Assembly: GCF_000300515.1 (NCBI RefSeq)
Contig: NZ_AMSI01000018.1
Location: 1 to 64,000 of the forward strand
Length of the DNA: 64,000 nt
Direction of reading: 5' to 3'
DNA from: Nitratireductor indicus C115
Lineage (GTDB): Bacteria > Pseudomonadota > Alphaproteobacteria > Rhizobiales > Rhizobiaceae
A model generated the notes under the pieces. It ran no database searches. It saw nothing but the letters and a program-made list of their open reading frames with translations, and was not told the origin of the DNA. Numbering within the stretch: the first letter of the stretch is position 1; each line of letters begins with the position of its first letter. This document shows positions 18,127 through 33,350 of the stretch, piece after piece. The translations under genes were made by a program, and so were the position numbers.

Positions 18127-18873
18127 TTGCAGATCGGTATGAGTGACAGACGCCAACCTCAAACCAAGATGGAAGCCGCTTATCGCGCATTGCGGCGGGA
18201 TATTCTTGCTGCCCGGCTTCTGCCCGGCGCGCCGTTGCGGATTGCTGCGCTTTGCGAGGAATACGATCTTGGCTGGACCCCGTTGCGCGAGGCGCTTTCG
18301 CGCCTTGAAGCGGAGCGGCTGGTCACGGCGGTCAGCAATCGCGGATTCGCTGTTGCGCCCGTTTCACCCCGGGAGCTGGCCGATCTTTCCAAGGCGCGCA
18401 TCCCCGTCGAGGCTGCCTTGCTGGAGGAATCCATCCGGCATGGAGGCAGCGACTGGGAAGCGGGTGTGGTGACCGCGCACTACCGTTTGTCGCGTTGCAG
18501 CGTGCCGACGGCGGAGCTTTCGGAAACCGCGTTGAACGATTGGGTTGAAAAGCATCAGGCTTTTCATGAAGCGCTTCTGGCTGCGGCGGACGCTGCCTGG
18601 CTCAAGCATTTTTACGGCCAGATATGGGGACAACTCAGCCGTCACCATATCTTCCTGACCGTCAGGCCAACGCTGAAGGCCATTGCAGCTGACGGAAAGG
18701 GGCAGGCGGCGGCTGTCGCGGCCTTGCAGGACGCCATGGCGCTTGACCAGCACACACGCCTGATGGAGCTTTCGCTCGACCGGAATGTGAAGGGAGCGGT
18801 TGCTCTGATGAAGCAGCATGTGACCGCGGCAGCAGATGCATTTGCCTTTGCAGATGAGGAAAAAGAGGCGTGA
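18127..18873 (+). CDS. GntR-family transcriptional regulator (FCD type)
   Basis: A 248-residue regulator. The N-terminal winged helix spans ~15-80 (MEAAYRALRRDILAARLLPG, then LREALSRLEAERLVTAVSNR) and is followed by an all-helical FCD ligand-binding domain with His residues suited to metal binding (KHQAFHEALL; SRHHIFL). The start is TTG at 18127 with GGGAG four bases upstream, or ATG at 18139 with no good site. It is divergent from the TrpXYZ-type importer and overlaps the next gene by 4 bp, so it may regulate both. The effector is unknown. Confidence 0.87.
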   Translation: MQIGMSDRRQPQTKMEAAYRALRRDILAARLLPGAPLRIAALCEEYDLGWTPLREALSRLEAERLVTAVSNRGFAVAPVSPRELADLSKARIPVEAALLEESIRHGGSDWEAGVVTAHYRLSRCSVPTAELSETALNDWVEKHQAFHEALLAAADAAWLKHFYGQIWGQLSRHHIFLTVRPTLKAIAADGKGQAAAVAALQDAMALDQHTRLMELSLDRNVKGAVALMKQHVTAAADAFAFADEEKEA

Positions 18874-20303
18874 GCGACCGGCGCGATGCAACCTCTTTGT
18901 TCGCGAGTTTGTTCGTCGGCATCTTTTTCTCTCTGATGTGGTGTAGCCGGGCCTTCGCCCATGCTTCGGATCGCGGGCATGTTCTGCTTCTGCCCACGCA
19001 TTACTATCTCTTCGGCGGTATGCTTGCCGTGGCATTGAGCTTTCTGGTCCTGGTCTTTCTGCCTCCAGAAGGGCTCTTGCGGCTTTCTTCTCAGCGATTG
19101 CCAATCGCTCGGATTCGCTTCGACGGGCGCGGGTTTGTCAGTTGTCTTTCCGCGCTCTTTCTGGCCGGGCTCATCTACACAGGCTTTGCAGGCAGCCGCG
19201 ATCCGTTGTCCAATCCGCTGCCCCTGACCGTGTGGACGCTGCTCTGGGTCGGCTTGACCCTGTTTCAGGGTTTGGCGGGCAACATCTGGGCATGGCTCAA
19301 TCCCTGGTACGGACCGTGGCGGTTGATATTGCGCCTCGGCGTGCCGTCGCGAGGTTTTCTGCGCCTGCCGCGCGCCATCGGCATGATACCGGCGGTGCTC
19401 CTGCTTTTCGCATTCGCCTGGTTCGAACTCATCTATCCCGCGCCGGACGATCCGGCGCGACTGGCCATAGCGGTCCTCACCTACTGGGTCTTTAGCATGC
19501 TCGGGGCGGTCATTTTCGGCTATCATGGCTGGTCGCGGCGGGTGGAGTTTCTCACGATCTTCTTCACGATGATTTCACGGCTCTCTCTCTTTTCGCTACG
19601 GCGGGAGACAGGGAGAAGCAGGGTTCTTTTCGTTGGCGTTCCCGGACACAAGTTGCGCGACACTGCCGCGCTGCCGCTTTCGGGCATACTGTTTCTCCTG
19701 CTGGCTTTGAGCTCGGTTTCGTTCGACGGCTTCATGCGCACGTTTCTGTGGCTCGGGGCGATCGGCGTGAACCCGCTGGAATTTCCTGGCCGCTCGGCAG
19801 TGGTGCTGCCCAACACGATCGGGCTTCTTTCGATGTTCGCTGCCCTGTGCACGGCATTCCTGCTTGCCGTGCGGGCCGGCAATGCGCTCGCGGGAGGCGA
19901 GCCGCCCCGGCGCGCGGCGGGTCATCTGGTGTGGTCGATCATTCCCATCGCGCTCGCCTATCATTTCTCGCATTATCTCGTGGCTTTCGCCATCAACAGC
20001 CAATATGCGCTTTCTGCCCTCTCTGATCCGCTCATGCAGGGATGGGATCTGTTCGGCACGGCAGACATGTATGTTCAGGCCGGTGTTGCGCTTGGTGCGG
20101 AATCCGCCTGGAAAATCTGGAACGCGCAGGCGTTCGCCATCATCGGCGGCCATGTATTTGCAATCATTGTCGCGCATATGATCGCGCACAGGCTTTATGG
20201 GGGGCGCAAACGCGCCGGACTCAGCCAGATACCCCTTGCCGTGCTGATGGTTCTCTACACCGTTTTTGGCTTGTGGCTCCTTTCCGCTCCGACGGGCGGA
20301 TAG
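18870..20303 (+). CDS. Polytopic membrane protein of unknown function
   Basis: A 477-residue protein with about eleven to twelve hydrophobic segments. It has a possible signal or first helix at 8-30 (ending FAHASDRGH) and conserved-looking aromatic motifs in loops (LPTHYYLFGG; NIWAWLNPWYGPWRLI; HFSHYLVAFAINSQYALSAL; GGHVFAIIVAHMIAH). Several His and Trp residues near membrane boundaries could bind metal or haem. I weakly recall similar proteins labelled fenitrothion hydrolase, which may be a transferred name. GTG start overlaps the gntR stop by 4 bp, implying a common transcript. Confidence 0.6.
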   Translation: MSDRRDATSLFASLFVGIFFSLMWCSRAFAHASDRGHVLLLPTHYYLFGGMLAVALSFLVLVFLPPEGLLRLSSQRLPIARIRFDGRGFVSCLSALFLAGLIYTGFAGSRDPLSNPLPLTVWTLLWVGLTLFQGLAGNIWAWLNPWYGPWRLILRLGVPSRGFLRLPRAIGMIPAVLLLFAFAWFELIYPAPDDPARLAIAVLTYWVFSMLGAVIFGYHGWSRRVEFLTIFFTMISRLSLFSLRRETGRSRVLFVGVPGHKLRDTAALPLSGILFLLLALSSVSFDGFMRTFLWLGAIGVNPLEFPGRSAVVLPNTIGLLSMFAALCTAFLLAVRAGNALAGGEPPRRAAGHLVWSIIPIALAYHFSHYLVAFAINSQYALSALSDPLMQGWDLFGTADMYVQAGVALGAESAWKIWNAQAFAIIGGHVFAIIVAHMIAHRLYGGRKRAGLSQIPLAVLMVLYTVFGLWLLSAPTGG

Positions 20304-20474: not shown

Positions 20475-20518
20475 TTGTCAACGGATTGGATTGGTGATTT
20501 AGTTTGTACACAAGTGAT
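20475..20518 (+). promoter_or_regulatory. Candidate promoter with MarR-like operator ahead of the LIV-type importer
   Basis: TTGTCA (20475-20480), 17-bp spacer, TTTAGT (20498-20503) form a sigma-70-like promoter. A 20-bp motif TTAGTTTGTACACAAGTGAT at 20499-20518 overlaps the -10 box. It shares 13 of 20 positions with the motif at 26159-26178, placed at the same offset from the -10 of the molybdenum hydroxylase operon, and both continue TTT. This suggests control by the MarR protein at 32886. Confidence 0.5.
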
Positions 20519-20589
20519 TTTTCCGGTGTCTGGAACTGCTTCCGTCATCGAGAACGCTCGGTCAAACATCACAAGAATGGGGAACTGGC

Positions 20590-21894
20590 ATGAGTGAAGA
20601 TCGCATCCTGAAGTTAGACCGCCGCAACGGCCTGAGCCGTCGCACCACGCTGAAAGGGCTCGGCGCCGCCGCCGGTCTCATCGCCGCGCCGGGCTTCGTG
20701 CGCTATGGCCAGGCGCAGTCTTCCGCGCCGATCAAGATCGGCTTTCAATGCCATCGCACGGGCATAGGCGCCGCCTATGGCCGCTGGTATGAAAGGGTGA
20801 CGGCGGCTGCTGCCAAGCGCATCAACGATGCCGGCGGCATCAATGGCCGTCCGCTGGAAATCGTCATCGAGGATGACGGCACCGACCCCAAGCGCGGGGC
20901 AGAGGTGGTGGAGAAATTCGCCAACCAGCACAAGGTGGACCTCGTATATGGCACGCTGTTTTCGCATGTGGTTGTCGGTTCCGCCCCGGCGGCTGGCGAG
21001 CTCAAGATTCCCTATTATGTCGTTAGCGAGGGCTACCACGTCGCTTCCGGCAAGTTGAACCGCTACTGCGTGCAGCCCGGCATCACCGACGTGAAGGCGC
21101 AGGTCCGTTCCGTCGCCCCCTGGATCGCCGGCAATCTCGGCAAGAAGGTCACGCTGGTCTATCCCGACTATGCCTTCGGCCACGATCACCGCGATTTCTT
21201 CGAGCCGGCAATCAAGGCGCAGGGCGGCGAGGTCGTCGCCAAGGTTCCGATCCCGCCGACGGAAACCTCCTTCACCCGCTACTTCCCGCAGATACCCTCC
21301 GACACGGATGTGATCTACCACGTGATGGTGGGACCGGCGGTTCTGACCTTCGTCAAGGAGCTGGGTGAATTCTTTGGCTCGGGCGGTCCGCAGCTGTTCG
21401 GTTTCATCGATTCGCTCGAGGCGGTGGACATCAAGAGCCCGGGGCTGGAATTTCTCGAAGGCAGCCATTTCTGGGAGGGCATGCCACGCTACGCACAGCC
21501 CGATCAGCCCGATTATGTCACCGCCTACCGCGAAGCGGTGGGGATCGACGAAAACGGGGCGAGCACCGGCGATGCCAAGGATATCTCCACGGCGGCCCAT
21601 ATGTTCGGGTGCTGGGAAACTCTGAACATCATCAAGGCTTCGATGGAAGCCTGTGGTTACAGGGGACCGGAGGACCGCGCTGCCATGATCGAGGCGACCG
21701 AGGCCATGACCGAAATGGAAGCCGGGCCCGATCATCCGCAGGGCAAGAAGCTTTTCAACGGAAAGACCCATCAGGTTTTCGGCGAGCAGAGCATCAGCCA
21801 GGTCTCTGACGGCAAGCTGAAGGTCGTGCACCGCACTTCCATCGAGGATGGAAGCTACGAGCCGGAAGCCGACTACACGACGATGTCGTTCTGA
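20590..21894 (+). CDS. LIV-type ABC transporter substrate-binding protein, Tat-exported
   Basis: A 434-residue periplasmic binding protein of the branched-chain amino acid/urea receptor family. The N-terminus has a twin-arginine signal (SRRTTLKGLGAAAGLIAAPG), so it is probably folded before export. The mature part shows PIKIGFQCHRTGIGAAYGRW, AAKRINDAGGINGRPLEIVI and LVYPDYAFGHDHRDFF. It heads a five-gene importer operon. LIV-family receptors bind many carboxylates and aromatic acids besides amino acids; the neighbouring catabolic genes make an N-heterocyclic carboxylate a candidate ligand. Confidence 0.88.
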   Translation: MSEDRILKLDRRNGLSRRTTLKGLGAAAGLIAAPGFVRYGQAQSSAPIKIGFQCHRTGIGAAYGRWYERVTAAAAKRINDAGGINGRPLEIVIEDDGTDPKRGAEVVEKFANQHKVDLVYGTLFSHVVVGSAPAAGELKIPYYVVSEGYHVASGKLNRYCVQPGITDVKAQVRSVAPWIAGNLGKKVTLVYPDYAFGHDHRDFFEPAIKAQGGEVVAKVPIPPTETSFTRYFPQIPSDTDVIYHVMVGPAVLTFVKELGEFFGSGGPQLFGFIDSLEAVDIKSPGLEFLEGSHFWEGMPRYAQPDQPDYVTAYREAVGIDENGASTGDAKDISTAAHMFGCWETLNIIKASMEACGYRGPEDRAAMIEATEAMTEMEAGPDHPQGKKLFNGKTHQVFGEQSISQVSDGKLKVVHRTSIEDGSYEPEADYTTMSF

Positions 21895-21937
21895 GGCCGG
21901 TGAGTTCGGGTATTGCCGTGCGTGCCGCCATTCTCGC

Positions 21938-22043
21938 CCTTCGACAAGCTCAGGATGAGGATGGCGGCATGGCGACGCCTTGGCTGTTTCGGTCTCCGGT
22001 TGCCAATGCAAACCCTCACGGTGAGCTTGTCGAACCACGAGGG
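21938..22043. repeat. Dispersed palindromic intergenic repeat, copy 1
   Basis: The arms TTCGACAAGCTCA (21940-21952) and TGAGCTTGTCGAA (22022-22034) are perfect inverted copies enclosing ~70 bp; the ends read CCTTCGAC... and ...ACGAGGG. The same TGAGCTTGTCGAA recurs at 33514-33526 in a similar arrangement. It resembles REP/RIME-like elements of rhizobia. It sits between the binding-protein and permease genes of the importer, where a hairpin could reduce downstream expression or protect the upstream mRNA. Confidence 0.75.
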
Positions 22044-22120
22044 TGGAAGCTGGCGTGGCAATCCTCGAAACTGCATTTCCACCCAGGTCACCAAGTCCCC
22101 TCATGAAAGTGCGCTTCTGA

Positions 22121-23002
22121 ATGGCCTTTGGACCCTATTTCCTGCTTGCTTCGCTTGAAGGTCTGGTAACGGCGGCAGTTCTGTCTCTTATGGCGCTGGG
22201 ATTATCTCTGGTCTTCGGCGTGATGCGGGTGGTGAACGTCGCCCATGGCGAATTCTATATGCTCGGCGCGGTCGTCGCCTGGTGGGTGGCGTCGCTGCTC
22301 GGGGGTCATCCAGCCATCGGTTTCCTGCTGGCGCTGGTCATCAGCCCGCTGGTGGTGGCTGCGATTGCATTCGTGGCCGAAAGACTGGTACTCAGCCGCC
22401 TTCACTACGAGCCGGAAGCCACAATCGTTGCCACGATCGGCCTGCTCTACATCATCCAGCAACTGGCGCTGACCTTCTACGGTCCAGAAGCCCGCCCGGT
22501 GCAGGCGCCGTTCAATTATCGCATCAGCCTGCCCTGGTTCGGCTATTCTGCCTACAAGCTTTCCGTCATAGGCTTCTCGGTGCTCATGATGCTTGCCACC
22601 TGGCTGCTTCTGACGCGTACCAAAATCGGCCTCATCATGCGCGCCACCCAGTTCGACCGGGAAACCGCACAGGCCTTCGGCATACCGGTCGGGCGCGTCT
22701 ATGCCGGGGTCTTCGCCCTGGGCGCTGCACTGGCGGCGGTTGCTGCTGTGCTGATCGTGCCGATCCAGCAGGCGCATTATCTGATGGGGCTCGATCCGCT
22801 TCTCCTGTCCTTCATCGTGGTCATCATCGGCGGGCTCGGCAGTCTGCGGGGCACGGTGGTGGCGGCGGTTCTGATCGGCCTGTCCGACGGGATCATCTCC
22901 ATGTTCTTTTCGCCGACGCTCGCCAAGATGCTGGCGACGCTGCTGGTCGCGCTGGTTCTCGTGTTCCGGCCGCAGGGCCTGTTCGGGACGGCGGCGCGAT
23001 GA
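22121..23002 (+). CDS. LIV-type ABC transporter permease (LivH-like)
   Basis: A 293-residue inner-membrane permease with eight or so hydrophobic segments and the LivH signatures LSLVFGVMRVVNVAHGEFYM, GLIMRATQFDRETAQAFGIP and VVIIGGLGSLRGTVVAAVLIG. It follows the binding-protein gene after 226 bp containing a palindromic repeat and overlaps or abuts livM. With LivM it forms the translocation pore. Confidence 0.92.
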   Translation: MAFGPYFLLASLEGLVTAAVLSLMALGLSLVFGVMRVVNVAHGEFYMLGAVVAWWVASLLGGHPAIGFLLALVISPLVVAAIAFVAERLVLSRLHYEPEATIVATIGLLYIIQQLALTFYGPEARPVQAPFNYRISLPWFGYSAYKLSVIGFSVLMMLATWLLLTRTKIGLIMRATQFDRETAQAFGIPVGRVYAGVFALGAALAAVAAVLIVPIQQAHYLMGLDPLLLSFIVVIIGGLGSLRGTVVAAVLIGLSDGIISMFFSPTLAKMLATLLVALVLVFRPQGLFGTAAR

Positions 23003-23037
23003 GGCGGGGCGGGGAGGCGTGGCAGGAGCGGATCGGC

Positions 23038-24012
23038 ATGAAAATCCAGACGAACCTTGCGCCTTCCGCAAAGAGCCTCGCGCTGCATGCCGGCGTGGTG
23101 CTCCTGCTTCTGGCGCTCAATTTTCTGCTGCCGGAATATCACCGCGGCATCTTCGCGCGCGTTCTGGTGCTGAGCGTGTTTGCGATGGGCTATAATCTGG
23201 CCTTCGGTTATACGGGGCTTCTCAGCCTCGGCCACGCCATGTTCTTTGCCGCCGGCCTCTATGGGGCCGGACTTCCCATCTATCATCTGGGCTGGAATGT
23301 CTGGCCGGCCTTCGGGGCAGGGATACTCGCCGGTGGCGCTCTTGCGCTCGTGGTGGGGTTCCTGGCGCTGAGGACGACGGGCGTCGCCTTCATGATCGTG
23401 ACACTGATGTTCGCGCAGGTCTTCTACCTGACGACGCTCTATTTCACGACCTATACGCGGGGCGAGGAAGGGCTGGTTCTGCCGCAGGCCGTGCGGCGTC
23501 TTTCCCTGCCCGACGGCCCGCTCGATCTCAGCGACCCGTCGACGCGCTATCTCGTGGCGCTCTCGCTCTTCACCGTGGTTCTTGCGGCGATCCTCTTCCT
23601 CGTGCGCGCGCCCTATGGGCGTTCGCTCGTCGCGATCCGCGAGAACGAGGAGCGCATGCGGATGCTTGGATATGACGTCTTTGCCAACAAGCTGGCGGCC
23701 GTGGTCCTCTCCGGAACCTTCTGCGCTGCGGCCGGGGCGGCCTATGGCGTTCTTTTCGGTTATGTCGGTTCGGGCTTTGCCTCGATCCAGTATTCCATCC
23801 TGCCGCTGTTGTGGGTGCTTGTCGGCGGCGCGGCAACGACGCTCGGGCCGCTGATCGGCACGCTCTTCATGTTCTATGTCATCGATACCGCCTCCAGCTA
23901 TACCACCGCGCATCTTCTGGTGGTCGGGCTCGTTCTCATCGGGGTCATTCTTTTTTTCCCGAAAGGCATTGCGGGGACGGTGCGCGAAAGGTGGTTGCGA
24001 TGGCTTCCCTGA
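23038..24012 (+). CDS. LIV-type ABC transporter permease (LivM-like)
   Basis: A 324-residue permease with the LivM core: GYNLAFGYTGLLSLGHAMFF, YGRSLVAIRENEERMRMLGY and VGSGFASIQYSILPLLWVLV. I prefer ATG 23038, with AGGAG nine bases upstream; an ATG at 22999 overlapping the livH stop would add 13 residues. The end overlaps the ATPase gene by 13 bp. It pairs with the LivH-like permease. Confidence 0.92.
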   Translation: MKIQTNLAPSAKSLALHAGVVLLLLALNFLLPEYHRGIFARVLVLSVFAMGYNLAFGYTGLLSLGHAMFFAAGLYGAGLPIYHLGWNVWPAFGAGILAGGALALVVGFLALRTTGVAFMIVTLMFAQVFYLTTLYFTTYTRGEEGLVLPQAVRRLSLPDGPLDLSDPSTRYLVALSLFTVVLAAILFLVRAPYGRSLVAIRENEERMRMLGYDVFANKLAAVVLSGTFCAAAGAAYGVLFGYVGSGFASIQYSILPLLWVLVGGAATTLGPLIGTLFMFYVIDTASSYTTAHLLVVGLVLIGVILFFPKGIAGTVRERWLRWLP

Positions 24013-24740
24013 CCCCGCTTCTCATCACGCGCGATCTGTGCCGCTCCTTCGGCGGCCTGCGCGCCGTGGACCAGGTGGACTTCTCGCTGCCGGAGGGGGA
24101 AACCCATGCAATCATCGGCCCGAACGGTGCGGGCAAGACTACCTTTGTCAGCTTGATCTGCGGGCGGGTTGCGCCTACCTCAGGCAGCGTGGTCTTCGAT
24201 GGAACGGACATTTCCCGCATGCCGGCCCACAAGCGTGTGCGCGCGGGTATTGCCTATACGTTCCAGATCACCAGCGTGTTCGCCAATCTCTCCGCCTTCG
24301 ACAATGTGGCGCTGGCGGTGCAGCGCCGGCTGATCGACGATCACGAGCGCGGGCTCACGTCCCGGGCGCTGGTGGAGCACGGCATGGATGCGCTCCACAA
24401 GGTCGGGCTTGCGGCCCTTGCAGACAAGGTGGCGGGCAATCTCTCCTACGGACATCAGCGATTATTGGAGGTGGCCATGGGGCTTGCGCTCAAGCCTCGC
24501 CTGCTGATCCTGGATGAGCCCACACAGGGGCTTTCCGACAGCGAGATCGAGAATTTCATTTCTCTCGTACGCCAGATTGGCGAAGAAGCGACGGTGCTTC
24601 TGATCGAGCATAATATGGATGTGGTCATGGCGCTGGCGCAACGCATCACGGTCATGGAACAGGGGCGAGTGCTGGCGCAAGGCGGCCCGGCCGAAATCCG
24701 CGCCAATCCGGCCGTCCAGCAAGCCTATCTCGGAGGGTGA
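24000..24740 (+). CDS. LIV-type ABC transporter ATPase (LivG-like)
   Basis: A 246-residue ABC ATPase: Walker A GPNGAGKTT, a LivG-type Q-loop with FQITSVF, signature LSYGHQRLLEVAM (Tyr and His in place of the classical GGQ), Walker B LLILDEP, switch His in LIEHNMDVV. The variant signature is common in LivG-like subunits of urea and aromatic importers. It overlaps the permease gene upstream and is one base from livF downstream, so the operon is tightly coupled. Confidence 0.92.
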   Translation: MASLTPLLITRDLCRSFGGLRAVDQVDFSLPEGETHAIIGPNGAGKTTFVSLICGRVAPTSGSVVFDGTDISRMPAHKRVRAGIAYTFQITSVFANLSAFDNVALAVQRRLIDDHERGLTSRALVEHGMDALHKVGLAALADKVAGNLSYGHQRLLEVAMGLALKPRLLILDEPTQGLSDSEIENFISLVRQIGEEATVLLIEHNMDVVMALAQRITVMEQGRVLAQGGPAEIRANPAVQQAYLGG

Positions 24741-24741
24741 G

Positions 24742-25449
24742 ATGACGGCGGCGCTCAGAGTGGAAGGTGTCGACAGCCATTACGGCCATGTCCAGGTGCT
24801 GCGCTCCTTCGAGCTGGAGTTGCGGCGCGGCGAAGTGCTGTGCCTGCTTGGCCGCAATGGAGCCGGCAAGACCACCGCGCTGAAGACCATCATGGGCCTG
24901 GTGCCGGCAACGGCGGGACGCATTCTGCTTGGCGATATCGAGCTTTCCGGCCTCGCGCCGCATGAGGTGCCCCGCGCCGGTGTGGCCTATGTCCCGCAGG
25001 GGCGGCGGTTGTTTGCGGAAATGACGGTTGGCGAGAACATCGAGATTGGCCTGATGACGCGAGGAAAGGGCCGGGCGACGCGGGAAAGCGTGCTCGATCT
25101 CTTCCCCGTTCTGCGTGAGCGGTTGACCCAACGCTCGGGCACGCTTTCGGGCGGTGAGCAGCAGATGCTCGCCATGGCGCGCGCGCTTTGTCTCGAGCCA
25201 CAGGTGCTTTTGCTGGATGAGCCCACCGAGGGGCTGATGCCCTCCATGATCGCACGCATCCGCGAAACCGTCGCGGGGCTGCGGGAACGCGGCGTTTCCA
25301 CTATTCTGGTGGAGCAGCGGGTGGATGCGGTTCTGCCCGTTGCGGACCGGGTGGCGTTTATCGAGAACGGGCGCAATCGTGAGACCGTGGCAGTCGAGCA
25401 ACTGCGCGCGGACCCGCAGATGGTGCATCGCTATGTGGGGGTTGGGTAG
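24742..25449 (+). CDS. LIV-type ABC transporter ATPase (LivF-like)
   Basis: A 235-residue ABC ATPase: Walker A GRNGAGKTT, VAYVPQGRRLFAEMTVGENI typical of LivF, signature LSGGEQQMLAMARAL, Walker B VLLLDEPTEGL, switch position VEQRVDAV (Gln-Arg instead of His after E, common in LivF). It completes the five-gene importer. The start at 24742 has GGAGGGTGAG immediately upstream. Confidence 0.93.
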   Translation: MTAALRVEGVDSHYGHVQVLRSFELELRRGEVLCLLGRNGAGKTTALKTIMGLVPATAGRILLGDIELSGLAPHEVPRAGVAYVPQGRRLFAEMTVGENIEIGLMTRGKGRATRESVLDLFPVLRERLTQRSGTLSGGEQQMLAMARALCLEPQVLLLDEPTEGLMPSMIARIRETVAGLRERGVSTILVEQRVDAVLPVADRVAFIENGRNRETVAVEQLRADPQMVHRYVGVG

Positions 25450-25482
25450 GTACAGGGTGGCCTGTGCTGCGGTGGAGCGGCG

Positions 25483-26082
25483 TTATGACAGCGTCACTCC
25501 GGCCTCCTTCATCTTCGCCGTCATTGTGGCCAGGGAACCGCCAAGGTCTATGGCGCGGCACCCTTCAAGGATGACTGTCGCGTCGAACCCCTGGCGGCGG
25601 GCATCGAGTGCCGAATAGGCAACGCAGAAATCCGTCGCAAGGCCGGCCAGCGTCACTCTCGAAATGCCCCGTTCCCGAAGGTAGCCGGAAAGCCCCGTCG
25701 GCGTTTCGTGGTCGTTCTCGAAAAAGGCCGAATAGCTGTCGATCGCCTTGCGAAACCCCTTGCGGATGATCATCTCGGCGCTCGTCCATTCGAGCTCCGG
25801 GTGGAATGCCGCTCCGGCTGTGCCCTGTACGCAATGGTCCGGCCAGAGCGTCTGTGTTCCGTAAGCCATCTCAACCGTTTCGAAAGGCGCTTTTCCCGGG
25901 TGCGAGGAGGCGAAGCTCGAATGGCCGGCGGGGTGCCAGTCCTGCGTCAGCACCACATGCTCGAAGCGACCGATGAGCGCGTTGATGACCGGCACCACCT
26001 GATCGCCGCCGGCGACCGCCAGCGCGCCGTCGGGGCAGAAATCGTTCTGCACGTCGATGACGATCAGGGCTTCATTTGCCAT
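25483..26082 (-). CDS. pncA: Nicotinamidase/pyrazinamidase PncA
   Basis: A 199-residue isochorismatase-fold amidase converting nicotinamide to nicotinate and ammonia. The catalytic triad is visible: Asp10 (VIDVQNDF), Lys108 (IIRKGF), Cys153 (LATDFCVAYSALDA). Metal ligands include Asp48 and His50 (TQDWHPAGHSSF). The start at 26082 aligns with the family; the frame upstream is not conserved. It lies head to head with the molybdenum hydroxylase operon across 165 bp. PncA normally serves NAD salvage, but here it could feed nicotinate into the adjacent catabolic genes. Confidence 0.92.
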   Translation of the reverse strand: MANEALIVIDVQNDFCPDGALAVAGGDQVVPVINALIGRFEHVVLTQDWHPAGHSSFASSHPGKAPFETVEMAYGTQTLWPDHCVQGTAGAAFHPELEWTSAEMIIRKGFRKAIDSYSAFFENDHETPTGLSGYLRERGISRVTLAGLATDFCVAYSALDARRQGFDATVILEGCRAIDLGGSLATMTAKMKEAGVTLS

Positions 26083-26135
26083 TGCGCTCTTCTCCTTCTC
26101 GCGAGTTTCGGCGAAGGTGGACCGAATGTTCCCCT

Positions 26136-26178
26136 TTGACAAGCGGCGGGAGGAGCGTATCATTTGTATGCGAATGAT
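26136..26178 (+). promoter_or_regulatory. Promoter and MarR-like operator of the molybdenum hydroxylase operon
   Basis: TTGACA (26136-26141), a 16-bp spacer and TATCAT (26158-26163) form a good sigma-70 promoter for the rightward operon. The near-palindrome ATCATTTG-TATG-CGAATGAT (26159-26178) overlaps the -10 and fits a MarR dimer site. A related motif sits at the same offset in the importer promoter (20499-20518). The MarR gene is the last in this operon, so autoregulation is expected. Confidence 0.6.
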
Positions 26179-26246
26179 TTTGCGCGCCGACAAAAACACA
26201 AGAAGGGCGCGGGGAACGACATCGTTTTCAGGCAGGCAGGTGCAGT

Positions 26247-27101
26247 ATGGACTATGCCAGACCGACCACGCTGGAGGAGGCGTTGGAGCTTATGCGCTCC
26301 CGGCCCTGGACCGTTCTTGCGGGCGGGACCGATTTCTATCCGGCCCTTGGCGGCGGACCCGTCAAGGCCGATGTACTCGACATAAACAGTCTCCGCGAAC
26401 TCAAGGGCTTTTCCCGCTCCGACAGCCATATCGTAATCGGTGCGCGCATGAGCTGGAGCGAGCTTCTCGAAGCACCTCTGCCACCAGTCTTCGACATGCT
26501 GAAACAGGCGGCGCGGGACGTGGGCTCCGTCCAGATTCAGAATGTGGGCACGGTGGCGGGAAATCTCTGTAATGCATCGCCCGCCGCCGATGGCGTTCCG
26601 CCGCTGCTGGCGCTCGATGCGGAGGTCACTCTCACCAGTCATGCGGGAAAGCGCCATGTGCCGCTTTCGCGCTTCATCCTGGGCAACCGCAAGACAATGC
26701 GGGAAGCCGATGAGCTGGTGACGGCGATCCGCGTTCCCATGGCGGCATGCGAGGGCAGGTCGGGTTTCGTCAAGCTGGGCGCACGCCGTTATCTGGTGAT
26801 CTCCATCGCCATGGCCGCCGCGCGGCTTGTGCTCGACAGTGGCCGGGTTCGAGGGGTGGCAATTGCGGTCGGATCCTGCTCTGCGGTGGCACGACGGCTT
26901 GCGGGGCTGGAGGCCGTGCTTGCCGGAGCGTCGCCCGATGCCGTGCCGGCGCTGGTGGCGGCCTACGGTTTTCCCGAGCTTGCTCCCATCGATGACGTGC
27001 GCGGTACGGCCAGCTACAGGCGCGAGGCTGCGCGGGAGATCGTCGCAAGGGCGCTCGCGCAGGCTGCGGGCGAAGTGCTGGGCGGAGGGATTGCCGCATG
27101 A
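26247..27101 (+). CDS. Molybdenum hydroxylase FAD subunit (xanthine dehydrogenase family, medium)
   Basis: A 284-residue flavoprotein of the CO dehydrogenase/xanthine dehydrogenase medium-subunit family. The FAD-binding motifs are VLAGGTDFYPAL (~30) and VGTVAGNLCNASPAADGVPP (~105); the CO_deh_flav_C domain follows. It passes electrons from the iron-sulfur clusters of its partner to an acceptor. It overlaps the downstream fused large subunit by 4 bp. It is the first gene behind the promoter at 26136, so it opens the six-gene operon. Confidence 0.92.
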   Translation: MDYARPTTLEEALELMRSRPWTVLAGGTDFYPALGGGPVKADVLDINSLRELKGFSRSDSHIVIGARMSWSELLEAPLPPVFDMLKQAARDVGSVQIQNVGTVAGNLCNASPAADGVPPLLALDAEVTLTSHAGKRHVPLSRFILGNRKTMREADELVTAIRVPMAACEGRSGFVKLGARRYLVISIAMAAARLVLDSGRVRGVAIAVGSCSAVARRLAGLEAVLAGASPDAVPALVAAYGFPELAPIDDVRGTASYRREAAREIVARALAQAAGEVLGGGIAA

Positions 27102-29836
27102 AGCTTTCGCTTTCCTTCGCCGTCAATGGCGCGCTGGTCGAGGCCGAGGTCTCGCCCCTGCAGCGATTATCCTCCGTGTTGCGTGACGAACTGGGACTGA
27201 CCGGCACGAAAGTGGGGTGCGATGCCGGCGATTGCGGTGCCTGTTCGGTTGTGGTCGATGGCAAGGTCGTATGCGCTTGTCTGGTGCCGGCGGCAAACCT
27301 TGAGGGTGCACAGGTGCGCACGGTGGAAGGGCTGTCCAATGGCGCGTTATCGGCTTTGCAGGAATCCTTCCTGCGCCATGGGGCTGCGCAATGCGGCATC
27401 TGCACACCGGGGATACTCGTGAGCGCGGCAGCACTTCTGGAACAGAATGCTTCACCCACCGAAGACGAGGTGAAAGACGCGTTGGGCGGTGTGCTTTGCC
27501 GCTGCACGGGCTATCGGAAAATCATCGATGCGGTGATGGATGCCAACCGTCGGGCGGGCGTCGAGCCGGGGCTGGTGAAGAGGGGAGAGGCAGTCGGGGC
27601 CTCACCCATCCGTCTCGATGGCGCACGAAAGGTGACGGGCGCGGAAGTTTTCGGGGCCGATGAGCGCCCGGCCGACGCCTTGTCCGTCGCCGTGGTGCGC
27701 TCGCCGCACTGGCATGCGGAATTCGAGATCGGCGACGTGGATGCATTTGTCGCTGCTCATCCGGGGGTGGTTGCGGTTTTTACCGCGGCAGATATCCCCG
27801 GCGAGAACCGTTTCGGTGTCATTCCCCCCTTTGCCGATCAGCCGGCGCTCGCGGAAGGGCGGGCGCGGTTTCGCGGTGAGGCGGTGGCGCTGATTGCAGG
27901 CGAGCGGGCAGCGATAGACCTGCTGGACCTTGGCGATTTTCCGGTTTCCTGGCATCCGCTCCCTCATGCCTTGTCACCGTCGGAGGCGAAACGGGAAGAC
28001 TTCGCGCCATTGCATGAGGGGCGGGCGGGCAATCTGCTTACCAAGGGGTTCGTTGAATGCGGCGACCCGGAAGCGGCGTTGGCCGCATCGCATGTCACGG
28101 CAAGCGCTTCAATCGAAACCTCCTATGTGGAACATGCCTATATCGAACCGGAAGCGGGCTACGCGGTGATGGAGGGCGATACGCTCGTCATTAAGGCGTG
28201 CACGCAGGCACCCTATATGGACCGGGATGATACGGCGCGCATTCTTGGCCTGCCGCCGGAAAAGGTGCGGATTGTTCCGCTCGCCACCGGCGGCGGGTTC
28301 GGCTCCAAGCTTGATATTTCACTGCAGCCCCTCGTCGGGCTGGTGGCCATGCGCACCGGCAGACCGGCCGCGCTGGTCTATTCGCGTGGCGATTCCATGC
28401 GCTCCACCACGAAACGGCATCCGGCTTCGATGCGCGCCACCATCGGGGCTGACGAGAACGGGCATATCACCGGTATGGTGTTCGAGGGCGATTTCAACAC
28501 GGGCGCCTATGCGAGCTGGGGGCCGACGGTCGCCAACCGTGTGCCGGTCCATGCCTCCGGTCCTTATCGTACGCCGCATTATCGGGCCGAGGGGCGAGCC
28601 ATCCATACGAACGGGCCGATTTCCGGCGCGTTTCGCGGTTTCGGCGTTCCGCAAGCGACCATCATGCAGGAAACGCTCTATGATCGGCTCGCCGAAAAAC
28701 TCGGGCGCGACCGGCTGCAATTGCGGATCGACAACGCCTATGTGGACGGCGACCGCACGACTTGTGGGCAGCGTCTTGCGGGTGTGGGCATAAAGCAGTG
28801 CCTGGAAGCCTTGCAGCCGGGGTGGGAGCGCGCGCTGCTGGAAGCGCAGGCGGCAAATGCGGCGGGCGGCAAGATCCGGCGCGGTGTGGGTGTCGCCTCC
28901 TGCTGGTATGGCTGCGGCAACACGGCGCTGCCCAATCCATCGACGATCCGCGTGGGGATTTCGCCAGCCGGCCGCGTGGTGCTGCATCAGGGCGCGGTCG
29001 ATATCGGGCAAGGTTCGAACACCGTGGTGACACAGATTTGTGCCGATGCGCTCGGCCTACCGCTTTCCGCCTTTGAGCTCTTATGTGGCGATACATCGAT
29101 CACGCCGGATGCGGGCAAGACCTCCGCCTCGCGGCAGACCTTCATTTCGGGCAAGGCCGCGCAAAAGGCGGGGCAGGCCCTGCGGGAGAAGATCCTGCGC
29201 TTTGCAAATGTTTCCGAGGCCGCCGAGATCGGGCTGGAAGACGGGTTCCTCACGGTGCGCGAGGGTGAGGCCCTGCGGCGTATCGCGCTCAACGACATGA
29301 AGCCGGATGCGCTGGGCTATGTTTTTTCGGCGCAAGAGACCTACGATCCGCCGACGACCGCGCTCGATGAAAAAGGGCAGGGTGTACCCTATGCGGTCTA
29401 TGGATATGGAGCACAGCTCGTGGAACTCGAAGTCGACATAACGCTCGGCACGGTCAAGCTCCTGCGCATCGTGGCGGCCCACGATATAGGCCGGGCGATC
29501 AATCCCTTGCTGGTCGAAGGCCAGATCGAGGGCGGTATCGCGCAGGGCATTGGGCTTGCGCTGATGGAGGAATATGTGCCCGGGCGCACGGAAAACCTGC
29601 ACGATTATCTGATCCCGACCATCGGCGACGTGCCACCCATCGAAACCATTCTGGTGGAAGTGCCCGATCCCGAAGGGCCATTCGGGGCCAAGGGGCTTGG
29701 CGAGCATGTTCTCATTCCCACCGCACCGGCGATCCTCAATGCGATCCGTCATGCGACGGGGATCGCAATCGGCAAGGTGCCGGCGACGCCGAGCCGTGTT
29801 CTTGCGGCGATCCGTGAGCGGGAGGGTGAGGCATGA
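27098..29836 (+). CDS. Molybdenum hydroxylase, fused 2Fe-2S and Moco-binding subunit
   Basis: A 912-residue xanthine-dehydrogenase-family protein with small and large subunits fused. Residues 1-150 bind two [2Fe-2S] clusters (Cys41, 46, 49, 61 and Cys99, 102, 134, 136). From ~165 the molybdopterin domains follow, with GGGFGSK, AFRGFGVPQ and the C-terminal GAKGLGE in which Glu869 is the expected catalytic base. Such enzymes hydroxylate heteroaromatic rings using water. It overlaps its neighbours by 4 bp on both sides. The adjacent 6-hydroxynicotinate-reductase-like gene and pncA point to nicotinate or a relative as substrate; purines cannot be excluded. Confidence 0.9.
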   Translation: MKLSLSFAVNGALVEAEVSPLQRLSSVLRDELGLTGTKVGCDAGDCGACSVVVDGKVVCACLVPAANLEGAQVRTVEGLSNGALSALQESFLRHGAAQCGICTPGILVSAAALLEQNASPTEDEVKDALGGVLCRCTGYRKIIDAVMDANRRAGVEPGLVKRGEAVGASPIRLDGARKVTGAEVFGADERPADALSVAVVRSPHWHAEFEIGDVDAFVAAHPGVVAVFTAADIPGENRFGVIPPFADQPALAEGRARFRGEAVALIAGERAAIDLLDLGDFPVSWHPLPHALSPSEAKREDFAPLHEGRAGNLLTKGFVECGDPEAALAASHVTASASIETSYVEHAYIEPEAGYAVMEGDTLVIKACTQAPYMDRDDTARILGLPPEKVRIVPLATGGGFGSKLDISLQPLVGLVAMRTGRPAALVYSRGDSMRSTTKRHPASMRATIGADENGHITGMVFEGDFNTGAYASWGPTVANRVPVHASGPYRTPHYRAEGRAIHTNGPISGAFRGFGVPQATIMQETLYDRLAEKLGRDRLQLRIDNAYVDGDRTTCGQRLAGVGIKQCLEALQPGWERALLEAQAANAAGGKIRRGVGVASCWYGCGNTALPNPSTIRVGISPAGRVVLHQGAVDIGQGSNTVVTQICADALGLPLSAFELLCGDTSITPDAGKTSASRQTFISGKAAQKAGQALREKILRFANVSEAAEIGLEDGFLTVREGEALRRIALNDMKPDALGYVFSAQETYDPPTTALDEKGQGVPYAVYGYGAQLVELEVDITLGTVKLLRIVAAHDIGRAINPLLVEGQIEGGIAQGIGLALMEEYVPGRTENLHDYLIPTIGDVPPIETILVEVPDPEGPFGAKGLGEHVLIPTAPAILNAIRHATGIAIGKVPATPSRVLAAIREREGEA

Positions 29837-31362
29837 ACGAGCTTACCGAACGCTTTGAAGCCTCCCCGCCAGAAAAGCAGGCTGCGGGAGAAAAGCTGCG
29901 CTGCGATGCCTGTCCCGTGATGTGCTACATCGCGGAAGGGCGAACCGGCGCCTGCGACCGCTATGGCAATTTCGGAGGCCGGATCACGCGCTGCGATCCC
30001 GTCATGGTGCTCGAACATGCGGCAGAAGAAGGGGCCGCGCTGGTGCCGCTCGACAGCGGCGAGCCCTGGAACGGTGAGCTCGTCAACACAAAGCGGCGCT
30101 TCGTGAGCGCCATCGGCGCCGGCACCACCTATCCCGATTATAAGCCGGCCCCTTTCATCGTCTCGCAGGAGGTGGAGGGCGTCGATCTCGTTACCGTCGT
30201 CACCGAGGGGATTTTCTCCTATTGCGGCGTCAAGGTGAAGATCGACACGGACCGTTTCCTCGGTCCCGAAACCGCCACGGTGCGGGTGGCGGGAGAAGCG
30301 GTGGGCCATGTGACCACGGCAGAATATGGCAGCCAGATGCTGTCTTTGGGCGGGGTGCACCACCTCACCGGCGGTTCGAAGGCCGAGGGTCGTGTCACCT
30401 GTCAGGCGCTGATGGACCTTTGCAACAAGAAGGCCGTGGAGCTTTCCATCGATGGTGGAGCCACGGTGATCGTTCAGGCGGGGCAGCCGCCGGTCATCGA
30501 TGGCAAGCGCGAGGAGCGTATGCGGGTCGGTTGCGGCTCGGCAGCCATCGGCATGTTCGCAACCCAGTGGAAGGGGCTGGTGGACGAGGTGGTGGTCGTG
30601 GACGATCATATCACCGGCGTAGTGTCCGAGCATCAGGCGGGCAAGGTGATCGGCTGGGAAGACACCGGCATCAGGATCGTCGGGCGGCGTTCGACGCCCG
30701 GACGCTATTTCAAGGTTTCGGAGCCCGGCCTCGGCTGGGGTGGCACGACCATTGAGGATCCGCTCCAAATCCTCGGCGCGTTCAATGAGAAAAAAGGCGC
30801 GCGTCCGGGGCTTTCACTGCTGATGGTCTCGACCACGGGTGAACAGTTTGCCTATTACGAGCTTGATGAGGCGCTGAAGCCGGTCAAGAAACCTTTTCCC
30901 GAGCGCTTACGGAAGTCGGTGGAGTTGATCGAGGAAAATTGCGAACCGGCGCTTTGCACCGTCCTGTTCATGGGCGGAGCCGGGGGATCGCTGCGCGCCG
31001 GCGTGACGGAAAATCCGGTCAACCTGACCCGCTCCGTACAGGGCCTCAAGACCTATGTCACCTGCGGCGGCGCGCCGGTCTATGTGTGGCCGGGCGGCGG
31101 TATCACGATCATGGTCGATGTTTCGCGCACGCCCGACAATGCTTTCGGATACGTGCCCACGCCGGCCCTGGTGGCGCCCATCGAATTCACGCTTCGACGC
31201 GACGATTATATTCGCCTTGGCGGTTATGCGGATGAAATCCGCAGCATTGACGATGTGCTCGAAAAGGGCGGGGAATATTTCAATGCACGAGAGAGCAGGC
31301 AGGCGCAGGACGACAATCCATGGCCGCCGCGCCAGCAATTGCGCCGTGAGCCGCCGCGATGA
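29833..31362 (+). CDS. 6-hydroxynicotinate reductase-like iron-sulfur flavoprotein
   Basis: A 509-residue protein resembling the 6-hydroxynicotinate reductase (Hnr) of Eubacterium barkeri, which reduces the ring to 1,4,5,6-tetrahydro-6-oxonicotinate. The N-terminus has a ferredoxin-like Cys set (C24-xx-C27-xxx-C31, C41, C54: CDACPVMCYIAEGRTGACDR). The centre is Gly-rich (SLGGVHHLTGGSKAEGR; MRVGCGSAAIGMFA). The E. barkeri enzyme carries Fe-S clusters and a covalently bound flavin. I see no ApbE target motif DxxS/TGAS/T. It overlaps the hydroxylase and UPF0280 genes by 4 bp each. Family recognised from memory; the exact substrate is inferred. Confidence 0.72.
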   Translation: MNELTERFEASPPEKQAAGEKLRCDACPVMCYIAEGRTGACDRYGNFGGRITRCDPVMVLEHAAEEGAALVPLDSGEPWNGELVNTKRRFVSAIGAGTTYPDYKPAPFIVSQEVEGVDLVTVVTEGIFSYCGVKVKIDTDRFLGPETATVRVAGEAVGHVTTAEYGSQMLSLGGVHHLTGGSKAEGRVTCQALMDLCNKKAVELSIDGGATVIVQAGQPPVIDGKREERMRVGCGSAAIGMFATQWKGLVDEVVVVDDHITGVVSEHQAGKVIGWEDTGIRIVGRRSTPGRYFKVSEPGLGWGGTTIEDPLQILGAFNEKKGARPGLSLLMVSTTGEQFAYYELDEALKPVKKPFPERLRKSVELIEENCEPALCTVLFMGGAGGSLRAGVTENPVNLTRSVQGLKTYVTCGGAPVYVWPGGGITIMVDVSRTPDNAFGYVPTPALVAPIEFTLRRDDYIRLGGYADEIRSIDDVLEKGGEYFNARESRQAQDDNPWPPRQQLRREPPR

Positions 31363-32312
31363 ATGGCCCTGTCGCAAGATGGCTCCCCGATGGGCGGCGG
31401 TTGCATCTCAATCACGGGCCCATAGACCTGATCGTTGAGGCGTTCGGGGATGACGGAGAGCGCCGTCTGGCCTATCGGCAGGCGGCAGGGCGTTTCCAAA
31501 CCGTGCTCGGTGAGCTGGTGGCGGAGCTGCCCGCGCTCAGGCGTCCGGTGGGGCAGGAGAGACAGGTCTTTGCGAGTGGCACTGCTCGGCGGATGGAGAG
31601 GGCGGTATGCCCGCATTTTCCCGCTTTCGTAACGCCCATGGCGGCGGTGGCCGGCAGCGTGGCGGATGAGGTTCTGGCCGCGATGGTCGAGGGGCGCGAT
31701 CTGCAGCGCGCTTATGTGAACAATGGCGGCGATATCGCGTTTCACCTTGCGCCTGGCGCGCGGATGGCGGCGGCGATCGCTGGAACCGGGCAGGAGCTTT
31801 CGGATCGGATCGAGATCGCCTCTGAGCATCCCGTGCGCGGGCTTGCCACCAGTGGCTGGCGCGGGCGCAGCCACTCGCTGGGCATTGCCGATGCGGTGAC
31901 CGTGCTTGCCAGGAATGCGGCGATGGCCGATGCGGCCGCCACGCTGATTGCCAACGCGGTCGATCTGCCGGGGCATCCTGCAATCGTGCGGGAACCTGCA
32001 AACAGCATCGATCCAGACAGCGATCTGGGCGCGCGCATGGTGACGCAGGGCGTTGGAGCACTCACGACGCAGGAAATCGACGAGGCGCTTGCAAGCGGCC
32101 TTGCTGTCGCGGAAGACATGCGCTCGCGCGGGCTGATAACGGCAGCAGCCCTGTTCCTGTGCGGCGCTCATCGTTTGTACGAGGCGTTCCCGGGGCAATT
32201 GCTATGCGCGCCGCGGCGCGAAAGGGATTGCGATCAAGGGGCAAACACCGCCATAACGGAACGGCTGGGATCACGAGCCGGGTCCAGCGAAAGGAATCGA
32301 GAGCATGCCTGA
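31359..32312 (+). CDS. UPF0280 (ApbE-superfamily) protein
   Basis: A 317-residue protein of UPF0280/COG2122, related in fold to ApbE flavin transferases. Recognisable parts are ARWLPDGRRLHLNHGPIDLI, AAVAGSVADEVLAAM, AYVNNGGDIAFHLAPGA and LATSGWRGRSHSLGIADAVT, corresponding to the ApbE-type GGD and TSG motifs. No signal peptide, so it is cytoplasmic, unlike exported ApbE. The 4-bp overlap with the reductase gene suggests it matures that enzyme, for example by attaching its covalent flavin. This role is a hypothesis; the family has no established activity that I know of. Confidence 0.85.
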   Translation: MNGPVARWLPDGRRLHLNHGPIDLIVEAFGDDGERRLAYRQAAGRFQTVLGELVAELPALRRPVGQERQVFASGTARRMERAVCPHFPAFVTPMAAVAGSVADEVLAAMVEGRDLQRAYVNNGGDIAFHLAPGARMAAAIAGTGQELSDRIEIASEHPVRGLATSGWRGRSHSLGIADAVTVLARNAAMADAAATLIANAVDLPGHPAIVREPANSIDPDSDLGARMVTQGVGALTTQEIDEALASGLAVAEDMRSRGLITAAALFLCGAHRLYEAFPGQLLCAPRRERDCDQGANTAITERLGSRAGSSERNREHA

Positions 32313-32889
32313 ATTCACCGTGCGCAAGATCGCGCTTCTGACCGAGGAGATCTTTCACGAGGGCGGGCCTCGTCCAGCCGTGCCGCGCCGGCGTGCAGCG
32401 GTAATGGCACTGGTCAAAAATCCCTTTGCCGGGCGCTACGTTGAAGAGCTTGAGGACGCGATGGGAGATCTGAAGCCGCTCGGCCTTGAGATGACCGACA
32501 GGCTCGTCGCTGCGTTCGAAGGTGGTGCTTCCGTTATCGACGGTTTCGGCAAAGGCGCTATCGTCGGCACGGCTGGTGAACTGGAACATGGCGCGCTGTG
32601 GCATGTGCCCGGCGGCTATGCCATGCGCGAGCGCCTCGGCGATTCAAAGGCCATTGTTCCTTCAGCCAAGAAAGTCGGGGCGTTCGGTTCGCGCATCGAT
32701 ATCCCGCTCGGGCACATCAATGCAGCCTATGTGCGCAGCCATTTCGACGCCATGGAGGTGGGGCTTTCGGACGGGCCGCGGCCCGACGAGATTCTGTTCG
32801 TGCTCGCCATGACGGCCGGCCCGCGCGTCCATGCCCGCATGGGCGGCTTGAGGGCAGAGGACGTCAAGGGCGAGGATGGCCTCAGATGA
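32305..32889 (+). CDS. Amino acid synthesis family (DUF1185/PF06684) protein
   Basis: A 194-residue protein of the AA_synth (DUF1185) family: VRKIALLTEEIFHEGGPRPA, VMALVKNPFAGRY, GKGAIVGTAGELEHGALWHV, VPSAKKVGAFGSRIDIPLGH. Solved structures of this family show a variant of the Bacillus chorismate mutase (AroH) fold, and the function is unproven. It overlaps UPF0280 upstream by 8 bp and the MarR gene by 4 bp. In this context a step on a ring-derived intermediate, such as lactam opening, is possible but speculative. Confidence 0.82.
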   Translation: MPEFTVRKIALLTEEIFHEGGPRPAVPRRRAAVMALVKNPFAGRYVEELEDAMGDLKPLGLEMTDRLVAAFEGGASVIDGFGKGAIVGTAGELEHGALWHVPGGYAMRERLGDSKAIVPSAKKVGAFGSRIDIPLGHINAAYVRSHFDAMEVGLSDGPRPDEILFVLAMTAGPRVHARMGGLRAEDVKGEDGLR

Positions 32890-33350
32890 CGAGGGCCGAC
32901 GAAACGTCGAAGGCGCTGCCGGGAGGGCCTTCGACCGATGCCTATGAACTGGATGAGCAGGTAGGCTTCATCCTGCGCAAGGCAAATCAGCGACATCTGG
33001 CGATTTTCGCGGCCCGGATCGGCGATCTGACACCGCCGCAATTCGCGGCACTCGCCAAACTTTATTCAGTCGGCGCGACCTCGCAGAATCAGCTTGGACA
33101 GCTCGTCGCCATGGATGCGGCGACCATCAAGGGGGTGATCGACCGGCTTAAGGCGCGCGGGCTCGTTACGCTGGAGCCGCATGAGAGCGACCGGCGCAGG
33201 CTGATGGTGAGCCTGAGTCCCGAGGGACAGGAAACCGTGGAGGCGCTTTTGCCCGAGGCCCTCGAGGTGACCGAGGAAACGCTGGCGCCGCTGACACCGC
33301 GCGAAACCGCAACCTTCCTTCGGCTTCTGACCAAGCTTGCCGAAGGATAA
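32886..33350 (+). CDS. MarR-family transcriptional regulator
   Basis: A 154-residue winged-helix regulator: LGQLVAMDAATIKGVIDRLK is the recognition region and LVTLEPHESDRRRLMVSLSP the wing. MarR proteins act as dimers that release DNA on binding aromatic ligands. It is the last gene of the operon, overlapping the DUF1185 gene by 4 bp (ATGA). The near-palindromes over the -10 boxes at 26159-26178 and 20499-20518 are its likely targets, linking importer and enzymes. Confidence 0.9.
   Translation: MTRADETSKALPGGPSTDAYELDEQVGFILRKANQRHLAIFAARIGDLTPPQFAALAKLYSVGATSQNQLGQLVAMDAATIKGVIDRLKARGLVTLEPHESDRRRLMVSLSPEGQETVEALLPEALEVTEETLAPLTPRETATFLRLLTKLAEG

Follow-up and report, generated by a model that had tools for sequence, protein, structure and literature searches.

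Gene content of the locus

The window analyzed here, a stretch of 64,000 nucleotides, is part of one contig of the Nitratireductor indicus C115 genome (4.99 Mb, 73 contigs) and holds a gene cluster that is probably best read as a reductive route for nicotinate degradation. The cluster consists of a LIV-type importer, a nicotinamidase gene (pncA) and a six-gene catabolic operon encoding a two-subunit Mo-hydroxylase, a protein like 6-hydroxynicotinate reductase (Hnr), members of the UPF0280 and DUF1185/AA_synth families, and a MarR regulator (Table 1). This gene content had been given in a preliminary description made from the letters alone, and it was borne out, with families assigned by profile match. 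The six catabolic genes are open frames with zero internal stops, and successive genes overlap by 4, 4, 4, 8 and 4 bases. The pncA gene adjoins this operon and is divergent from it. For the LivM-type permease, the start at ATG 23038 was picked from the AGGAG upstream. The listed frame of pncA extends to 26199, and its start is probably Met 40, the profile match beginning at residue 40.

Table 1. Importer and catabolic genes in the N. indicus C115 window
Gene product	Position	Strand	Profile matches and remarks
LIV-type importer substrate-binding protein	20590..21894	+	Peripla_BP_6, 187 bits
LivH-type permease	22121..23002	+	BPD_transp_2, 136 bits
LivM-type permease	23038..24012	+	BPD_transp_2, 131.5 bits; longer frame 22282-24012
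LivG-type ATPase	24000..24740 (start chosen)	+	ABC_tran, BCA_ABC_TP_C; longer frame 23811-24740
LivF-type ATPase	24742..25449 (start chosen)	+	ABC_tran; longer frame 24619-25449
PncA, nicotinamidase	25483..26082	-	NF008623 equivalog, 216.9 bits (cut-off 174)
Mo-hydroxylase FAD subunit	26247..27101	+	FAD_binding_5, CO_deh_flav_C
Mo-hydroxylase fused [2Fe-2S] and molybdopterin subunit	27098..29836	+	Fer2, Fer2_2, MoCoBD_1, MoCoBD_2
Hnr-like Fe-S protein, 509 aa, putative 6-hydroxynicotinate reductase	29833..31362	+	
UPF0280/COG2122 protein, putative Hnr accessory factor	31359..32312	+	NF003322, 387.6 bits (cut-off 290)
DUF1185/AA_synth protein, clade AAS1	32305..32889	+	PF06684, 224 bits (cut-off 27)
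MarR regulator	32886..33350	+	PF01047, 42.5 bits

The proposal of a reductive route for nicotinate, or a close analogue, is supported by the adjoining pncA, by related loci and by a published Bradyrhizobiaceae cluster. Among 141 related loci that were read, Hnr was called by script in 113; gene calling was conservation-based and a number of the loci are cut short, so the counts are lower bounds. Of these 113 loci, calls were made for AA_synth in 97 and for UPF0280 in 83, for the fused Mo subunit in 81, for nicotinamidase in 41 and for nicotinate phosphoribosyltransferase in 7. Relatives of the Eubacterium barkeri enamidase adjoin Hnr in many loci, and nicotinamidase adjoins many clusters of a second type, which carry the hydantoinase/oxoprolinase-type gene pair HyuA and HyuB (HyuAB). 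An outline of the idea has already been published for Azorhizobium and Bradyrhizobiaceae. The available text of PMC3511419 describes a nicotinate cluster in Azorhizobium caulinodans, Bradyrhizobium, Rhodopseudomonas and strain SG-6C, and reports assays of growth and of resting cells that address breakdown through 6-hydroxynicotinate; for the part involving 1,4,5,6-tetrahydro-6-oxonicotinate (THON), the argument in that paper draws on the cluster and on earlier work. The first three steps are said to be encoded in that cluster, and we read step three as ring opening. For the N. indicus locus, we infer the substrate and every reaction from gene context, the direct observations being gene content, families, co-occurrence, the alternation of enamidase and HyuA, and the trees.

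The best solved relative of the Mo-hydroxylase FAD subunit is 3hrd_C, the FAD subunit of nicotinate dehydrogenase (E 1.8e-25). Solved relatives of the fused Mo subunit include chains A, B and D of 3hrd as well as aldehyde oxidoreductases; it matches chains A and B with 249 + 221 bits, and single-chain aldehyde oxidoreductases score higher by chain.

Enamidase and HyuAB as proposed alternative ring openers

A search of the window genome with a limit of E 1e-50 found no member of the 2vun enamidase family, the one match being generic (E 4.7e-4). The preliminary description had pointed out that the window lacks an enamidase-type amidohydrolase and had left ring opening unexplained or assigned to DUF1185. 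The absence was confirmed and extends to the whole genome; DUF1185 as the sole opener was judged less likely, as it co-occurs with enamidase. The enamidase family found near Hnr elsewhere matches the E. barkeri enamidase 2vun almost over its full length (E 4e-109).

The distribution of ring openers was examined in two draws, one at the level of the order (199 sampled genomes, 48 Hnr-positive and 151 Hnr-negative) and one within the class Alphaproteobacteria (254 genomes besides the window genome, 37 Hnr-positive and 217 Hnr-negative). Two Hnr-negative order genomes (G042 and G082) were seemingly sampled in both draws, and the order Hnr counts include a match split across two contigs (G133) and a fragment (G183). 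Cut-offs were placed at score gaps, at ≥600 bits for enamidase and at ≥990 (order) or ≥975 bits (class) for HyuA, class-level HyuA being assigned by score, not by tree. In the order, 28 Hnr-positive genomes have enamidase only, 16 HyuA only, one both and three neither, vs enamidase in 3 and HyuA in 1 of the Hnr-negative genomes. The corresponding Hnr-positive numbers for the class are 13, 23, 0 and 1, with enamidase in 1 and HyuA in 2 of the 217 others. Across both draws, 85 Hnr-positive genomes comprise 41 with enamidase only, 39 with HyuA only, one with both and four with neither, and the 368 Hnr-negative genomes hold enamidase in 4 cases and HyuA in 3. In the order genome with both openers (G098), HyuA lies with Hnr, and enamidase is found on another contig beside an AA_synth pair without Hnr.

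In 27 of 40 genomes (12/17 in the order, 15/23 in the class), the distance from HyuA to Hnr is no more than 7 kb. The HyuA-HyuB pair lies 5' of the Mo-hydroxylase and Hnr in seven loci (L140, L141, L142, L144, L145, L146 and L149) and directly after AA_synth in one (L050). Many Mesorhizobium-type loci carry it a few kb downstream, together with a divergent gene that has FAD- and NAD-binding reductase domains. The HyuA of the window genome lies on a separate contig (G000:C8:140192-142246, minus strand) and is followed by a HyuB-cluster gene, in the same HyuA-HyuB-reductase layout, and is 75% identical to Mesorhizobium-type HyuA. Relatives of this HyuA and HyuB carry PF01968/PF05378 and PF02538, and it is through them that both were assigned to their families. 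In the HyuA tree, 23 core rows, including that of the window genome, form one clade (100/100) vs 15 other HyuA rows; the core rows were picked by score, and one (G185) belongs to a genome in which Hnr was not matched. In the open-licence literature searched, none of the papers listed showed HyuAB in nicotinate breakdown, as far as their text was available.

In the remaining 13 of the 40 genomes, the window genome among them, HyuA lies away from Hnr. Moreover, HyuA homologues are common, with five further copies in the window genome, all among the 15 non-core rows. HyuAB might thus be linked to the clusters otherwise, e.g., by hydantoin or 5-oxoproline scavenging, with an unrecognised hydrolase opening THON. 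However, the high-scoring HyuA group is present in 40/85 Hnr-positive vs 3/368 Hnr-negative genomes, it and enamidase almost exclude each other, and this explanation is considered improbable. Rather, an unlinked HyuAB of the Hnr-tied clade probably replaces enamidase in the window genome, as judged from these genome comparisons, and a nicotinate route with HyuAB as the ring opener is regarded as a reasonably probable reading of the locus.

The Hnr tree of the order covers 42 of the 48 Hnr-positive genomes (leaving out G065, G100, G133, G160, G183 and G184) and rejects a single clade of HyuAB users (12 vs 26 rows, p-AU 7e-34). The window Hnr family falls in a region where enamidase users dominate, apart from the main HyuAB clade. 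When 29 of the 37 class genomes were added (leaving out G226, G239, G242, G263, G264, G301, G427 and G429), a quick search gave a 71-row tree on which the opener label changes at least 8 times, vs 22 in shuffles. The window Mo subunit shares 57–67% identity with its counterparts in 12 loci of the enamidase type, 53–57% with those in five HyuAB loci from the distant clade and 64–74% with those in three nearer HyuAB loci. Since neither the hydroxylase nor the reductase tracks the ring opener closely, one substrate with two openers is favored.

The same data bear on another explanation, in which HyuAB-type clusters handle a different N-heterocycle, their hydroxylase and reductase, of unchanged family, leading to another reduced lactam whose opening requires ATP. 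The opener type differs, use of ATP points to a lactam of greater stability, and the label "nicotinate" rests on gene context. One well separated Hnr clade on the order tree is mostly HyuAB-type (7/9 rows), and the closest relatives of the window Mo subunit are the three nearer HyuAB loci. Yet the window Hnr sits apart from the main HyuAB clade, the window Mo subunit is closer to those of enamidase-type loci than to those of that clade, and the nicotinamidase genes beside many HyuAB-type clusters count against another heterocycle. This explanation is therefore rated as unlikely.

Several points weigh against a repeated replacement of enamidase by HyuAB on a nicotinate route. Only 3 of the 8 label changes are required by branches with good support; the independent pairs on supported branches number 2 and 3, with which a sign test cannot reach significance. 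Because these pairs are so few, the Fisher values (2e-18 combined, with kinship ignored) overstate the association and do not constitute independent evidence. The HyuA cut-offs were fixed after the gaps had been seen, the next scores being 888 in the order and 931 in the class. To the 13 genomes with distant HyuA are added the exceptions, i.e., G098 with both openers and G032, G064, G159 and G422 with neither, of which G064 and G159 also lack AA_synth. Enamidase is not known to need ATP, and use of ATP by the opener could point to another lactam. For the E. barkeri enamidase, two activities, ring opening and deamination, are described (PMC9304392, available text); a separate deaminase would thus be superfluous in enamidase-type genomes, yet these have DUF1185. 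Finally, the name "Hnr-like" was reached in steps, by way of the published Bradyrhizobiaceae clusters, rather than by a direct comparison with the E. barkeri Hnr: the window protein is 71–73% identical to Bradyrhizobium-type proteins, whose kin in strain SG-6C is given as 42% identical to the E. barkeri Hnr in the available text of PMC3511419.

The Hnr-like protein, UPF0280 and DUF1185

A Pfam scan of the 509-residue Hnr-like protein matched no family. The closest named Hnr among the 80 loci listed is 90% identical and comes from a Nitratireductor metagenome-assembled genome. Eight cysteines (positions 24, 27, 31, 41, 131, 190, 234 and 370) are invariant across 22 rows, and the predicted structure has a mean pLDDT of 54.6.

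The co-occurrence of Hnr, UPF0280 and DUF1185, which the preliminary description had proposed as a check, was found in the order draw. UPF0280, for which the profile was NF003322 (PRK04334, which we take to be UPF0280/COG2122), scores above the cut-off in 46/48 Hnr-positive vs 1/151 Hnr-negative genomes. In the two misses, G120 and G183, Hnr sits at a contig end; the sole Hnr-negative genome with UPF0280, G185, is a fragmented assembly that also has AA_synth and HyuA. Among 14 named control genomes, two match NF003322, both methanogens and below the cut-off. The available texts of PMC5764234 and PMC12068725 link UPF0280/COG2122, together with DUF39, to homocysteine synthesis in Desulfovibrio and methanogens. 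A profile search detected DUF39 (PF01837) in 3/14 controls and in none of the 199 order genomes, so that a homocysteine-synthesis role was ruled out here and the partner of UPF0280 in this order is Hnr. UPF0280 may mature the Fe-S or flavin site of Hnr, a role that would fit the homocysteine case too.

Pfam gave no support for UPF0280 being simply an ApbE flavin transferase (ApbE 9.3 bits, E 1, cut-off 25.6). An ADAxAT-like stretch, presumably linked to the ApbE metal site, is conserved in 120 rows. The E. barkeri Hnr carries a covalent flavin, and the one (S)AT stretch of Hnr that is loosely like an ApbE target motif has Ala in place of Thr in the copy from the window. Two genomes of one genus (G064 and G159; loci L143 and L147) have Hnr and UPF0280 without enamidase, core HyuA or AA_synth, and their Hnr pair is long-branched.

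The DUF1185 protein belongs to PF06684 by its cut-off and matches the 3byq fold, and its invariant residues over 27 rows include H, R, S, D and E. AA_synth occurs in 44/48 Hnr-positive and 23/151 Hnr-negative order genomes and in 0/14 controls. Two of its clades, classified for the order draw, are distributed differently. AAS2 is present in 26/26 enamidase-type genomes examined vs 0/16 Hnr-positive genomes with HyuAB only, while AAS1 is found with both opener types, including 15/16 of the HyuAB-only genomes. These counts omit G120 and G183 (enamidase-type) and G098 (both openers); G038, G133 and G184 were classed by best match, not by tree, and an extra G133 copy (L206) is unplaced.

Should DUF1185 open the ring itself, HyuAB would have some other role nearby. 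The invariant residues are enzyme-like, and AAS1 accompanies nearly all HyuAB-only genomes. However, DUF1185 is also present with enamidase and is thus unlikely to be the sole ring opener. Moreover, HyuA alternates with enamidase whereas DUF1185 as a family does not, and one genome (G004) has Hnr and HyuA with neither AAS1 nor AAS2. Ring opening by DUF1185 is accordingly judged very improbable, and opening by HyuAB is preferred.

A Foldseek search with the DUF1185 fold returned only DUF1185 entries below E 0.001; AtzD-type cyclic amidases, considered as possible kin, were not among the 50 matches listed, which excludes nothing. According to the available text of PMC8113886, the 3-aminoacrylate deaminase RutC is a member of the Rid family. 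Between DUF1185 and RutC, no sequence relation was seen, and the middling Z is equalled by chorismate mutase and OmpA-like domains.

AA_synth genes also occur in other settings. In two genomes without an Hnr or UPF0280 match (G099 and G130; L163 and L164), enamidase accompanies an AAS1-AAS2 pair. A more distant enamidase relative (about 330–360 bits), noted at loci L167, L168, L169 and L170, is present in 7 order genomes and in five of them, not G038 and G144, adjoins another AA_synth class without Hnr. Genes for an aldehyde dehydrogenase and a luciferase-like monooxygenase lie close to a third AA_synth class (L177, L178, L180 and L202); three of these four loci also match a flavin reductase, and L177 has an alpha/beta hydrolase. 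A Rut-like reading of these loci was rejected, the hydrolase being closer to PcaD and no Rut model scoring above its cut-off.

Proposed route and comparison with known systems

In the proposed route, the LIV-type importer would serve uptake and PncA would deamidate nicotinamide. The Mo-hydroxylase would convert nicotinate to 6-hydroxynicotinate, which the Hnr-like enzyme would reduce to the lactam THON, probably with electrons supplied via a ferredoxin reductase. HyuA-HyuB, encoded on the other contig, would open the lactam, with ATP use predicted by homology. The hydrolysis product would be 2-(aminomethylene)glutarate, a substituted 3-aminoacrylate, which DUF1185 may deaminate to 2-formylglutarate, and UPF0280 would serve as the Hnr maturation factor. 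The roles of DUF1185 and UPF0280 are less sure than the nicotinate route with HyuAB; the full combination, in which an ATP-dependent HyuAB lactamase, a second and non-homologous ring opener, repeatedly displaced enamidase in Alphaproteobacteria, DUF1185 is a novel type of enamine (aminoacrylate-type) deaminase and UPF0280 is a dedicated Hnr maturation factor, is put forward tentatively. Upstream of the importer, the window encodes a 477-residue hydrophobic protein (18870-20303, plus strand) without a Pfam match. Its relatives occur in 18/113 Hnr loci, mostly immediately 5' of the importer, and it is possibly an unrecognised uptake component.

What is new here is the ring-opening step: the data suggest a repeated replacement of enamidase by HyuAB and a place in the pathway for two families whose role is unknown. 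This provides a directly assayable ring-opening candidate for clusters without enamidase, and UPF0280, in bacteria of this group, and DUF1185, both uncharacterised, are placed in a defined pathway. UPF0280 also extends beyond genomes with the DUF39 homocysteine route. If true, the reading of HyuAB, DUF1185 and UPF0280 would assign functions to two long-uncharacterised families at once. Nicotinate breakdown is relevant to soil and marine bacteria and, as stated in the available text of PMC3511419, to the fate of 6-chloronicotinate from imidacloprid-contaminated soil.

Compared with the Azorhizobium and Bradyrhizobium cluster, the window genome lacks enamidase, and its Mo-hydroxylase is of the FAD plus fused Fe-S/Mo type, whereas Bradyrhizobium loci have a 1184-residue cytochrome c-bearing type. 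In one such locus (L123:5665-9219, minus strand), the 1184-residue Mo enzyme with cytochrome c domains lies beside a 2Fe-2S subunit; Bradyrhizobium-type clusters share the Hnr-UPF0280-AA_synth core. UPF0280 belongs to the same family as its Desulfovibrio and methanogen counterparts and again lies beside a redox/Fe-S enzyme system, but its partner is Hnr, not DUF39. Nicotinate fermentation in E. barkeri reportedly involves a Mo nicotinate dehydrogenase, Hnr and a THON intermediate (so Alhapel, 2006). The proposed route shares these three elements and differs in that enamidase is replaced. For that fermentation, the available text of PMC9304392 gives THON, the bifunctional enamidase and 2-formylglutarate. 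As for the replacement, delta-valerolactam, which has a six-membered ring, is hydrolysed at the expense of ATP by the oxoprolinase pair OplA/OplB (PMC11033972), and ATP-dependent caprolactamase, valerolactamase and 5-oxoprolinase pairs are described (PMC8453981), both according to the available texts. HyuAB would resemble these pairs in belonging to the HyuA/HyuB family and in ATP-driven opening of a cyclic amide, but its substrate would be a cyclic enamide acid, and it forms a distinct clade tied to Hnr.

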